Assembly (NCBI RefSeq): GCF_001672295.1
Contig: NZ_JXMS01000006.1
Location: 1-64,000, forward strand
Length of the DNA stretch: 64,000 nucleotides
Direction of reading: 5' to 3'
Source: Halodesulfovibrio spirochaetisodalis
GTDB lineage: Bacteria > Desulfobacterota > Desulfovibrionia > Desulfovibrionales > Desulfovibrionaceae
Below the pieces are notes generated by a model, which worked only from the letters and a program-made list of their open reading frames with translations, ran no database searches and was not told the origin of the DNA. A program made the position numbers and the translations under genes. Below, piece after piece: positions 11,088 to 15,767 of the stretch. Each line of letters starts with the position of its first letter. The stretch's first letter is position 1.

Positions 11088-11201
11088 TTCTCAAATACTT
11101 TCAATACAATGCGAGGGAATATTCTCTTTTATTTAAGAAGAACGATTAGAAACATCGGGCAGCAATGCCAAGTACGAATGAAGTATTTTTAAAAATGTCA
11201 A

Positions 11202-11272
11202 ATTTTACAAAATTGTAAATTTAAGCTCAAAAAATCATTTTTTAAGAGTCATAATTTACAATTTTGTAAAAT
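11202..11272 (+). promoter_or_regulatory. Paired operator-like repeats upstream of amtB (putative enhancer sites)
   Basis: Two 20-base arms (11202-11221 and 11253-11272) are perfect reverse complements of each other. Each contains the dyad TTTACAA-N2-TTGTAAA. They are centred about 140 and 90 bases upstream of the predicted sigma54 start, where enhancer-binding proteins normally bind. The cognate regulator is unknown. Confidence 0.7.
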
Positions 11273-11324
11273 ATGCAAAAATCCATTTTCAATTACATTT
11301 AATAAAAACAGACAGTTACAAACA

Positions 11325-11340
11325 TTGGCACAAACCCTGC
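11325..11340 (+). promoter_or_regulatory. Sigma54 promoter of amtB-glnB
   Basis: TTGGCACAAACCCTGC has GG and GC separated by exactly 10 bases (-24/-12 type). The predicted start is near 11352, giving a 26-base leader with AGGAGG before amtB. Confidence 0.85.
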
Positions 11341-11377
11341 TTTATTCAGAGCAAAATCTGAAAAGCAGGAGGTTACT

Positions 11378-12748
11378 ATGTCTGTGTGCAAAAGCACGTT
11401 GTCCCGATCAGGGTTGGTTGCGGTTATGACCGTTTTAGCGCTTGGAGCAAGCGCAACGTTGGTACATGCGGAAGAGGAGGCGGTGTACCTTACACAAACA
11501 AACGCGAACATAGTATGGACTCTGCTCGCTGCCATGCTTGTTATGTTTATGCAGGCCGGATTCACACTGGTTGAATGCGGACTCACCCGATCAAAAAACG
11601 CCGGTAATATTCTGATGAAAAACATGCTGGATTTTGCCGTCGGCACCATGCTGTTTCTCATGATCGGGTACGGATTGATGTTTGGTGGAGACTTTTTCGG
11701 ATTATTCGGAACAGACGGGTTCTTCCTGTCATTTATTGACGGCCCGTCAGCCAGCAGGGACTTTGATATCACCTTCTGGTTCTTCCAGTCTGTCTTTGCC
11801 GCCACTGCTGCAACCATTGTTTCCGGCAGCGTGGCAGAACGAACAAAATTTCAGGCCTACATTGTCATCAGTGTACTAGTGACAGGCCTTATCTACCCTA
11901 TTTCCGGCCACTGGGCATGGGGTGGACTCAGCGGAAACGCCGGCTGGCTCGAATCCTTAGGGTTTGTAGATTTTGCTGGATCAACAGTGGTTCACTCCCT
12001 TGGTGGATGGATTGCCCTTGCAGGTGCCATCGCTGTGGGACCAAGAATCGGTAAATACATGCCGGACAAAAAACCCCGTGCCATTCTTGGACACAACATG
12101 CCAATGGCAGGACTCGGCGTCTTTATTTTATGGTTCGGCTGGTTCGGCTTTAACGCAGGCTCAACCACAATGGCAGACGGCAGCATCGGCTATATCGCCT
12201 TAAACACCAGCTTAGCTGGCTGTGCAGGCATGATTACAGCCATGTGTACCGTCTGGACACGCTTTGGAAAACCTGAAGCATCCATGACCATGAACGGCAT
12301 TCTTGCCGGACTGGTAGGTGTAACCGCAGGATGTAGCGAACTTTCACCTTTCGGCGCAATTATTGTGGGTGGAATTTGCGGCTCAGCAGTGGTTCTTTCC
12401 ATTGAGTTTATCGACACCATTCTGTGTGTGGATGACCCGGTAGGTGCCATCTCTGTGCACGGCGTCTGCGGTGCAATAGGTACTCTTTCAGTAGGTCTGT
12501 TTGCGTCGCCTGAATTCGGCTCTGCTACCGGATTCTTCTACAACGGCGATCTCAGCCTGTTCGGAGTGCAGTTGCTCGGAGTTGCAGCCTTTTTCCTCTG
12601 GGCATTCGGTGCAGGAACCGTCTGTTTTAAACTTGTCGATAATGCAGTGGGCTTACGTGTAAGCCGCGCTGAAGAAATTAAGGGACTGGATATTACCGAA
12701 CACGGCTCAGAAGCCTACAACGGTTTCCAGATTTTTAGTGTCGAATAA
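11378..12748 (+). CDS. amtB: Ammonium transporter
   Basis: A 456-residue Amt family channel. It has a cleavable signal peptide (about 1-29) and then 11 predicted membrane helices. Family motifs present are AGFTLVECG, FWFFQSVFAATAATIVSGSVAER, GHWAWGG, DFAGSTVVHSLGGW, LGHNMPMAGLGVFILWFGWFGFN and HGVCGAIGT. It conducts ammonium or ammonia across the inner membrane. glnB follows after 18 bases, the usual pairing that lets PII plug the channel. Expression should depend on sigma54 through the promoter at 11325. Confidence 0.96.
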   Translation: MSVCKSTLSRSGLVAVMTVLALGASATLVHAEEEAVYLTQTNANIVWTLLAAMLVMFMQAGFTLVECGLTRSKNAGNILMKNMLDFAVGTMLFLMIGYGLMFGGDFFGLFGTDGFFLSFIDGPSASRDFDITFWFFQSVFAATAATIVSGSVAERTKFQAYIVISVLVTGLIYPISGHWAWGGLSGNAGWLESLGFVDFAGSTVVHSLGGWIALAGAIAVGPRIGKYMPDKKPRAILGHNMPMAGLGVFILWFGWFGFNAGSTTMADGSIGYIALNTSLAGCAGMITAMCTVWTRFGKPEASMTMNGILAGLVGVTAGCSELSPFGAIIVGGICGSAVVLSIEFIDTILCVDDPVGAISVHGVCGAIGTLSVGLFASPEFGSATGFFYNGDLSLFGVQLLGVAAFFLWAFGAGTVCFKLVDNAVGLRVSRAEEIKGLDITEHGSEAYNGFQIFSVE

Positions 12749-12766
12749 CCTGATCGGAGAAAAACA

Positions 12767-13093
12767 ATGAAAAATGTCGTTGCTTTTATCAGACCGGAAC
12801 GTCTCCCGCAGGTTAAGCAGGAGTTGTTCGCAAGAGACCTTTTTGGACTGTCTGTCACCAATATTCTTGGCAGTGGTCAGCAGAAGGGATTTACAGAAAC
12901 CTACCGTGGCGTCACAGAAGAAGTGAACCTTCTTAAAAAGCTGCGAATTGAACTGGTTGTTCAAGAAGAACGACTCAATGATGCTATCTCTGCCATAGAA
13001 ACCGGTGCCCGCACCGAAACTGAAGGCGACGGCATTATCTACTTCCAGGAAATTCACAACGTGCGTCGCATTCGTACTGGTGAACCGTTGTAA
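12767..13093 (+). CDS. glnB: PII nitrogen-signalling protein, divergent T-loop
   Basis: A 108-residue PII protein that aligns without gaps to classical GlnB/GlnK. Tyr46 (TYRG) and Lys58 are kept, and RIRTGE (101-106) is intact. The uridylylation site Tyr51 is Glu (VTEEVN), and Lys85 and Lys90 are Thr and Ile, altering the ATP/2-oxoglutarate site. It therefore probably is not uridylylated at 51 and may sense effectors differently. It lies 18 bases after amtB, so AmtB is its likely partner. Confidence 0.93.
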   Translation: MKNVVAFIRPERLPQVKQELFARDLFGLSVTNILGSGQQKGFTETYRGVTEEVNLLKKLRIELVVQEERLNDAISAIETGARTETEGDGIIYFQEIHNVRRIRTGEPL

Positions 13094-13275: not shown

Positions 13276-14256
13276 TTACCGTTCAAACTTTGATTTATCA
13301 GGAAACAGGCGTCGCAAAAAACGCTGCGTAATACGTACACCCTCTTCGGTTGTGTCTTCCGCATCATTTATGCAGAATGTTTTCGGCTTACAGTATCGTA
13401 TTAACGCCAACCGTTTTCTGAACCTGCTGTTTCCCGCAGTTGTTTCTACATGCTTCAGATCAAACGTCAACATGGCAAACGCCTTATTCACTCCGCCGAT
13501 ATTAACCATCCTGCTTACACCTAAATCGAGACACAACAAGCAATACGCACTTGAAAAAATAAAATCATCACGGGATCTGAAGCGATTAATAAATGTCTTT
13601 TCGCACTCTCCAGGAAAGGTATCCAGCAAGAGATCAGCCATTTTTTTCTGGATCGGCTTGGGAGTATGTCTGAACTTAACAGGCTTGAACCCGTATCCTT
13701 TTTCCATAAAAGCACAGCGGGTGTTCGCAACGGCTGCATCCAGATCTCCCATGTCATCCCGCACAGTAAGACAATCCTTCATGGGGCGTTTTTCTGTTAC
13801 ACCCCAGATAACAGGTGCTCCTGAATCATCAAAAAAATCGCTTCTGGAAACCTTGTTCCCGAACATCACATCATCATTGAAAAGTAAAAAATGCTCTGCC
13901 AAACCTTTTATCTGGGTAAGACACATCTCAATAGCGTTGCTGTTAAACGAAGGAAGGTAGGTCTGGCTGGGAAAAATGTCTTTGTGGTCAACAATAGTAA
14001 CCGCATCCAGATTTATGAAAGACGGTACCTGTCCGTCTGTGACAATGAACACCCTGTTCACCCACGGGGCATAGCGGTCTACGGAACGAAGCGAATACAG
14101 CAGCTCATTATTATCGCGAAATCTGCTCTCATCAGTTGCGCTTTCAAGATTCGCCGCACTTTTCCTTCGGGCGTACAACTCCTTCTTCTCGAGCCATTTC
14201 TGGTCGTTACCATCTACCCAAGGGTATACTATATCGACAGGAAAATCGCTGTTCAT
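13276..14256 (-). CDS. Stealth family sugar-phosphate transferase
   Basis: A 326-residue protein with the Stealth conserved regions: DIVYPWVDGNDQKW near the N-terminus (CR1), then ESRFRDNNELLYSLRSVDRYAPWVNRVFIVTDGQVP (CR2) and FLLFNDDVMFG. Stealth proteins are hexose-1-phosphate transferases that build phosphodiester-linked capsule or surface polysaccharides. No signal or membrane segment is seen, so it acts in the cytoplasm. No capsule cluster surrounds it here; upstream on the same strand is aroE, 246 bases away. Sugar donor is not predictable. Confidence 0.9.
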   Translation of the reverse strand: MNSDFPVDIVYPWVDGNDQKWLEKKELYARRKSAANLESATDESRFRDNNELLYSLRSVDRYAPWVNRVFIVTDGQVPSFINLDAVTIVDHKDIFPSQTYLPSFNSNAIEMCLTQIKGLAEHFLLFNDDVMFGNKVSRSDFFDDSGAPVIWGVTEKRPMKDCLTVRDDMGDLDAAVANTRCAFMEKGYGFKPVKFRHTPKPIQKKMADLLLDTFPGECEKTFINRFRSRDDFIFSSAYCLLCLDLGVSRMVNIGGVNKAFAMLTFDLKHVETTAGNSRFRKRLALIRYCKPKTFCINDAEDTTEEGVRITQRFLRRLFPDKSKFER

Positions 14257-15324: not shown

Positions 15325-15446
15325 GTTTTTTCCTTCAGTAGACGTACTGACATCAGCACACGTTATCGTTGTATGATTGAATACTGTAGCCAAGAAAAAA
15401 CACAAGGTACAGGGGGGACAGGCAGGCATGGAGCAAAAAAGACCAC

Positions 15447-15483
15447 AAAAAAAAGCGGAGTGTTTGACAGACACTCCGCTTTC
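15447..15483 (-). terminator. Terminator of the small-RNA candidate
   Basis: On the minus strand AGCGGAGTGT/ACACTCCGCT with a 7-base loop is followed by eight Ts. Confidence 0.92.
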
Positions 15484-15543
15484 AAAACTTGGTTAAGGGG
15501 AGCCACCCCTTACCCTGAATCCTTAGATGAAAAAAAGAAGGTA
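15447..15543 (-). ncRNA. Candidate sigma54-dependent small RNA
   Basis: The minus strand from a predicted start near 15543 to the T run at 15447 is about 97 bases with no ATG-initiated ORF. It contains a hairpin TAAGGGG/CCCCTTA and ends in a 10-base-pair terminator stem. A near-perfect sigma54 promoter lies immediately upstream. The inner hairpin resembles short hairpins of this genome's intergenic repeats, so part may be repeat-derived. Not matched to a known RNA family. Confidence 0.6.
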
Positions 15544-15551
15544 CTCTCATA

Positions 15552-15571
15552 TTAGCAACCTGCGTGCCAAC
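15552..15571 (-). promoter_or_regulatory. Orphan sigma54 promoter
   Basis: The minus strand reads TTGGCACGCAGGTTGCT, an exact match to the YTGGCACG-N4-TTGCW consensus with GG and GC 10 bases apart. No protein gene lies between it and the terminator at 15447. CGGAA-N5-TTCCG at 15675-15689, about 140 bases upstream of the predicted start, could be an enhancer site. Confidence 0.82.
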
Positions 15572-15767
15572 TTTTTCTAAAAAACAGTATTTTCTAAAAA
15601 CACTGTAAAAACAAAAGGTAAGACAAACACTCTCATTTTACAGACCATCAATCTAAGTAAAGTAATTTTTACTTCGGAAAATGCTTCCGCCAATTCCAAG
15701 GGCTTTAGAAAAAATTTTTGAACCAGCAAATGAAACGTAATCTCCCTAAAACTCACTGCACAGCACT

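Follow-up and report, generated by a model that had tools for sequence, protein, structure and literature searches.

A putative sigma54-dependent small RNA family with twin upstream activator sites in Desulfovibrionaceae and some related families

The locus between the AMP-binding enzyme gene and aroE

The window analyzed here is the whole 64-kb stretch (64,000 nucleotides) at positions 1 to 64,000 of contig NZ_JXMS01000006.1 of Halodesulfovibrio spirochaetisodalis. A candidate small RNA (sRNA) unit with the following features sits between two minus-strand genes, one for an AMP-binding enzyme and the other aroE.

15708 to 15723, minus strand: putative distal activator site GTTCAAAAATTTTTTC, a 16-bp AT-rich palindrome; best matrix site in the 64-kb window, 11 of 16 positions invariant
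15675 to 15689, minus strand: CGGAA-N5-TTCCG dyad CGGAAGCATTTTCCG, between the two putative activator sites; 11 of the 15 positions 15676-15690 invariant in six orthologs
15657 to 15672, minus strand: putative proximal activator site GTAAAAATTACTTTAC; second-best matrix site in the window, 11 of 16 positions invariant
15554 to 15570, minus strand: predicted sigma54 -24/-12 promoter TTGGCACGCAGGTTGCT; perfect consensus match, conserved in orthologs
15447 to 15543, minus strand: predicted sRNA, 97 nt; start placed by its distance to the -12 element
15528 to 15543, minus strand: CU-rich RNA 5' end UACCUUCUUUUUUUCA, the probable pairing region; 15 of 16 positions invariant in six orthologs, TACCTTC family-wide
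15494 to 15512, minus strand: hairpin UAAGGGGUGGCUCCCCUUA with tip GGUGGCUCC, from the predicted fold; tip recurs in the genus
15447 to 15483, minus strand: intrinsic terminator with U8, from the predicted fold

After the AMP-binding enzyme gene, which lies upstream of the sRNA, an inverted repeat with a T run can be read from the sequence. A Stealth-family gene with regions CR1 to CR4 (13276-14256) lies near aroE.

The first-pass annotation had described an orphan sigma54 promoter on the minus strand, and the promoter string at 15570-15554 does match the consensus exactly. With at most one mismatch, the pattern TTGGCACG-N4-TTGCW finds this promoter as its sole match in the window; at least one match also arose in 21 of 100 shuffles, so the string alone is not decisive within 64 kb. 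Across the organism's whole genome, TTGGCA-N6-TTGCW occurs 23 times and the reversed pattern once, and such strings are therefore mostly real promoters in this genome. Taking the C of TTGC (15555) as -12, we placed +1 at about 15543. The open stretch annotated about 12 bases past the promoter then runs from 15543 to 15447, exactly 97 nt, and holds no ATG; an ATG at 15550-15548 lies ahead of the predicted start and is not conserved. A small peptide product was rejected, as an ATG frame of at least 10 codons occurs in 5 of 93 family members, an ATG near the start is not conserved, and no conserved peptide was seen.

The predicted RNA folds at -34 kcal/mol (z -4.3), and none of 200 shuffles folded equally well. 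Within the fold are the internal hairpin UAAGGGG/CCCCUUA and the U8 terminator that had been described, although the terminator stem measures 13 bp, or 9 bp without the A-U and G-U pairs at its foot, rather than the 10 bp first given. The suspicion that the inner hairpin stems from a genomic repeat was ruled out, since the unit is unique in its own genome: a 341-bp stretch searched against it gave no matches other than the stretch itself and its own palindromic terminator. The hairpin tip, GGTGGCWCC, occurs three times in the window versus 0.70 expected.

Within the genus, the sRNA unit is conserved at the same place in 6 of 10 genomes, its own included. The 341-bp stretch has matches in 8 of the 59 genomes searched, again counting its own; besides this one, the true locus matches (G001, G002, G005, G008, and G009) are all of the genus, and the matches in G034 and G057 are short and fall in coding-like sequence. 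In addition to the counts listed above, 11 of 17 promoter positions, 15 of 18 hairpin positions, and 22 of 35 terminator positions are invariant among the six orthologs, compared with 3 of 71 further upstream, 21 of 86 in the spacer before the promoter, and 3 of 37 just downstream. The promoter, the RNA 5' end, the hairpin, and the terminator are thus kept while the flanks vary, the pattern that the annotation had expected relatives to display for a genuine unit. Covariation among the six orthologs is weak (95.6% paired cells, with two pairs showing double changes); two such pairs also turned up in 35 of 500 shuffles and in two of six slid versions, and the hairpin core never varies. Taken as sequence evidence, these observations support the prediction of a sigma54 promoter fronting a terminator-bounded noncoding RNA, of which we infer the transcription and the start site.

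The order AMP-binding gene, RNA, aroE is kept on the same strand in 5 of 5 relatives matched, which would fit a sigma54-dependent, attenuated 5' leader of aroE instead of an independent RNA. Between the RNA and aroE, however, lies the annotated intrinsic terminator, which is conserved; a conserved stretch just before aroE may be that gene's own promoter; and other genes stand beside family members elsewhere (see below). On the strength of the terminator and the differing neighbors elsewhere, we rejected the leader, which we regard as very improbable, in favor of an independent RNA. The stretch before aroE, at 15370-15409 between the sRNA terminator and the gene, is invariant at 22 of 40 positions across six genomes (CTGTACCTT...TTTTTTCTTGGCTACA) and bears an odd likeness to the sRNA 5' end; maybe it is the aroE promoter.

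Sibling copies across the order

The RNA is no orphan, as it had first been called, but one of a large family of siblings, another of which lies in this genome at G000:C37:13402-13507. A covariance model built from the six orthologs (R1) finds matches in all 10 genomes of the genus, this second place among them, and in 34 of the family's 199 genomes. In 23 weaker R1 matches that we read, the promoter is constant, and TACCTTC or a close variant stands at a fixed distance from the -12 element in nearly all; one R1 match, L045, lacks the constant RNA start and looks like chance.

The constant elements can be sought without a model. Matches to TGGCA-N7-TGCW-N10-TACCTTCNTT are present in 75 of the order's 348 genomes and in 9 of 59 genera, these 9 all within the same family, and the reversed-pattern control yielded none, a contrast on which we rejected a chance promoter. 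Of the 23 strict sigma54 promoters in the H. spirochaetisodalis genome, just one is followed by a TACCTTC-type RNA start. A profile of the promoter and the RNA 5' end (R2) reaches further, to 178 of 348 genomes of the order (143 of the 246 good ones) and 29 of 59 genera; because 34 members went into building it, some of these matches arise by construction, and those in its weak tail near E 1e-4 may be plain promoters. A scan of named-species genomes gave 56 loci, of which 16, from other taxa, were dropped as chance on record title and sequence. The 40 kept are labeled Desulfovibrio, Nitratidesulfovibrio, Halodesulfovibrio, Salidesulfovibrio, or Deltaproteobacteria, with one exception labeled Betaproteobacteria, whose contig is that of G062, a genome of the same family.

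Closely spaced copies, separated by a few hundred bases, were seen in genus g8 (about 280-390 bp), G007, and G102. The genes beside them differ from place to place: one Nitratidesulfovibrio copy has NUDIX and glycogen synthase genes as neighbors, as by eye does L133 of g8; another Nitratidesulfovibrio copy has seryl-tRNA synthetase and PilZ genes; and the Desulfovibrio copy L116 adjoins an arginase-family gene. In Halodesulfovibrio, the GGUGGC(U/A)CC tip is carried by 22 of 25 members, on 13 distinct stem-loop sequences, and GGTGGC(T/A)CC was found in none of 68 members outside the genus. Tips outside Halodesulfovibrio are often GGxGGUCC-like (L064, L309, L311, L313, and L317; GGGUGGUCC, GGACGGUCCG, and GGAUGGUCCG), which suggests a conserved loop motif of their own.

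The paired upstream palindromes and their candidate activator

The annotation had pointed to a CGGAA-N5-TTCCG dyad about 140 bases upstream as a possible enhancer. The dyad is present 132-146 nt before the predicted start, but what the family shares is a pair of AT-rich palindromes flanking it, and the dyad is conserved only in the six orthologs. We therefore set it aside as the family enhancer; it is possibly the site of a second regulator or an architectural site, and the shared enhancer is probably the two 16-bp palindromes, whose positions in this locus are 51 bp apart and whose family-wide form is roughly GTWNAAAWWTTTNWAC.

Members with identical 60 nt upstream were merged for the site counts, and those with less than 200 nt upstream were left out. 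A site of at least 9 bits was found in 84 of 85 distinct members, whereas 20 shuffles averaged 2.55 of 85 and reached 6 at most; these values are in-sample. Two sites are present in 77 of the 85 members and one in 8, all of them Nitratidesulfovibrio copies; the spacing is 51-53 bp, near five helical turns, in 60 of the 77 two-site members. When Halodesulfovibrio was held out (68 training members), 24 of its 25 members still had a site of at least 9 bits, versus 2.3% of random genomic windows drawn from nine stretches also holding sRNAs, and the two sites of our window remained first and second in its 64 kb. All 23 further members, taken from 20 chosen R2-matched stretches (mostly unused genera or loci, with some members related to training members), have a site, and a second of at least 8 bits is present in 20; three genomes of two other families are included. 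The second sRNA of the H. spirochaetisodalis genome, which stood outside the in-sample training set, has sites of 21.3 and 19.3 bits placed 43 bp apart, and no paired palindromes were found at the other 22 strict sigma54 promoters of that genome. A one-mismatch site pattern occurs at 69 or more places in this genome versus 66 in the control among the matches listed, so that single sites say nothing.

With the activator sites holding in held-out members, invariant blocks lying between variable flanks, and the reversed control at 0 versus 75 genomes, we give next to no credence to the view that there is no functional RNA here and that a decayed or chance promoter happens to precede a terminator. 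A strong site also turned up in L159 (G000:C37) at 12800-13010, where TTTTACCTTCTTT comes after GTAAAATTTTTTTTAC (21.5 bits) but no good promoter is present; this may be a decayed extra copy of the sRNA.

As the activator of this putative RNA, our candidate is an NtrC-type response regulator with a GSFTGA motif and REC-AAA-Fis architecture (G000:C9:26410-27792), encoded next to a membrane histidine kinase. Two small sRNA-bearing genomes encode few enhancer-binding proteins (EBPs): G322 has two, one of about 870 amino acids and the response regulator, and G269 has three. The response regulator is the only EBP common to both, which narrows the choice of activator. It was detected in 325 of the order's 348 genomes (243 of the 246 good ones), GSFTGA is present in all 35 of the response regulators read, and their DNA-binding helix is nearly invariant. 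The candidate is likely the ortholog of DVU3220. In the portions of the literature available to us, two response regulators, DVU3220 among them, are conserved in every Desulfovibrio studied, and DVU3220 has GSFTGA (PMC4641369).

A different EBP, possibly not the same one in every clade, has about an even chance of being the activator instead. Consistent with this, at least 4 of the 75 sRNA-bearing genomes have no detected response regulator (G296, 98% complete; G278, 93%; G162, 86%; and G062, 64%), and the single EBP of G296 is another protein. The response regulator is also spread more widely than the sRNA, being present in many genomes in which no sRNA was detected, and its gene is not linked to the sRNAs: no EBP gene was found near them in 20 stretches of 12-20 kb. 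Paired sites were seen neither at the candidate's own gene nor at other EBP genes; strong single sites at the EBP loci L176 and L182 fall in the start of the next gene, and one at L180 falls in apparent coding sequence. Moreover, if DVU3220 is the candidate's ortholog, it matters that the EMSA target reported for it is the amtB operon (PMC3333781), and the available portions of the two reports give it this one target, no DAP-chip data, and no motif (PMC4641369, PMC3333781); the amtB promoter in our window has a different palindrome and lacks the activator-site pair. Against another EBP stand the fact that only the response regulator is common to G322 and G269 and the conservation of both the site and the DNA-binding helix across the order. 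The balance of these observations hints, weakly, that the GSFTGA response regulator drives the sRNA family.

The sigma54-like promoter of amtB-glnK itself (TTGGCACAAACCCTGCT, within 11180-11378; genes at 11378-13093) is accompanied by two copies of its palindrome, TTTACAAAATTGTAAA and TTTACAATTTTGTAAA, perhaps a nitrogen-control site.

Proposed mode of action and comparison with known systems

We consider it likely that the unit encodes a stand-alone, trans-acting sRNA of Desulfovibrionaceae and some related families, made from a sigma54 promoter under an activator bound at twin sites and acting by pairing through its CU-rich 5' end without Hfq. The predicted promoter, the twin sites, the RNA 5' end, the hairpin, the terminator, and the family itself are brought out by comparison of sequences, whereas pairing is an inferred mode of action. 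Sigma54 RNA polymerase would sit at the -24/-12 elements, and an enhancer-binding activator, of which the response regulator is the likeliest candidate, would bind the two palindromes, located some 115-180 nt ahead of the start, and open the promoter in response to a signal. The transcript would begin at about UACCUUC and end at the intrinsic terminator; its 5' end, which is at most weakly paired in predicted folds, would pair with purine-rich, Shine-Dalgarno-like stretches of target mRNAs, probably repressing most of them. In Halodesulfovibrio, the GGUGGC(U/A)CC-tipped hairpin may provide a second contact or bind a protein.

A search with one Pfam model of Hfq (PF17209) gave no match in 7 of 7 Desulfovibrionaceae genomes (G000, G322, G269, G097, G181, G271, and G335), and the same model matched 5 of 14 genomes in a control search (E. 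coli, B. subtilis, and three others). The pattern AAGAAGGTA-N1-9-ATG, sought as a target signature, occurred 84 times in 10 genomes versus 131 times in the control (11 versus 13 in the H. spirochaetisodalis genome); being rarer than the control, it supports no target. Among the 30 of these 84 loci that were read, three ATG frames of at least 60 codons had a stop close upstream, and none of them recurred. Five genomes share the string AAGAAGGTATTCTAATG, and the one copy read opened no such frame.

CrcZ-type RNAs titrate an RNA-binding protein, and the sRNA might mainly do likewise, with its constant CU-rich 5' end and its GGUGGC(U/A)CC tip as landing sites. The recurrence of the tip within the genus (22 of 25 members, with 13 distinct stem-loop sequences) would fit such a role, as would the lack of a target above control and of a match to the Hfq model. 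Outside the genus, however, the tip is missing from all 68 members while the unpaired 5' end is kept, and we think titration unlikely as the main function. Pairing through the 5' end remains our preferred reading. The invariant 5' end, UACCUUC(C/U)UUUCUU, resembles what we take to be the anti-Shine-Dalgarno tail of 16S rRNA. A broader and more tentative extension, which we hold to be possible but doubtful, is an order-wide set of Hfq-independent sibling sRNAs with an anti-Shine-Dalgarno-like 5' end, through which one near-universal two-component regulator resets the translation of many mRNAs at once.

With the family as described here, a suspected orphan RNA may become a defined regulon, in which sibling sRNAs share a fixed 5' end and a defined arrangement of two putative activator sites. 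Its hosts are sulfate-reducing bacteria in which no Hfq was found (7 of 7 genomes) and in which sRNA action seems little known. These bacteria's most conserved response regulator may also gain a target in this way, DVU3220 being probably the same protein as our candidate.

Against Rfam at the gathering score, nothing in the window matched beyond a tRNA, and none of 13 weak matches at the sRNA locus was Qrr. Literature searches returned no paper on this sigma54 sRNA family among the matches listed, and the part of an Oleidesulfovibrio noncoding RNA survey available to us makes no mention of it (PMC11124144). The Qrr sRNAs of Vibrio, sigma54-dependent siblings activated by LuxO whose action needs Hfq, are close in kind: they share with our family the sigma54 promoter, an NtrC-type activator, sibling copies, and a short, terminator-ended RNA. 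Activation of a sigma54-dependent quorum regulatory RNA by two EBPs has been described, according to the accessible portion of the report (PMC10162802). The family differs from Qrr in taxon and in activator sites and has neither a Qrr match in Rfam nor, in 7 of 7 genomes, a match to Hfq.

Nearer in taxonomy are four sigma54-dependent noncoding RNAs of D. vulgaris Hildenborough, described in the sections available to us as targets of DVU0653, DVU0679, DVU1419, and DVU2359 (PMC4641369, PMC3333781); they belong to the same order and are likewise noncoding RNAs under sigma54 and dedicated EBPs. As far as those sections report, the EBP gene is adjacent or two genes away for three of the four, whereas none was seen in the 20 stretches around our family's members, and their regulators lean to free-living species (PMC4641369), whereas our family also occurs in D. 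piger. One of the four, most openly that upstream of DVU3282, might nevertheless be a family member, the comparison being by description only.

Two further groups share single traits. CcsR/cuckoo sRNAs of alphaproteobacteria (CCUCCUCCC) have unpaired, pyrimidine-rich stretches that may mask ribosome binding sites; such stretches are a likeness to our family, and Desulfovibrio members contain CCTCCTCC, but CCUCCUCCC is absent from 15447-15543 and the promoter type differs. The LhrC sRNAs of Listeria, which are multicopy and not known to be sigma54-dependent, differ in motif and organism. They resemble our family, according to the portion of the report available to us, in being sibling copies induced through a two-component system (PMC4132741). 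Since neither an Rfam match nor a paper on it was found, the family is apparently a new one of a known kind, the sigma54-dependent sRNAs.
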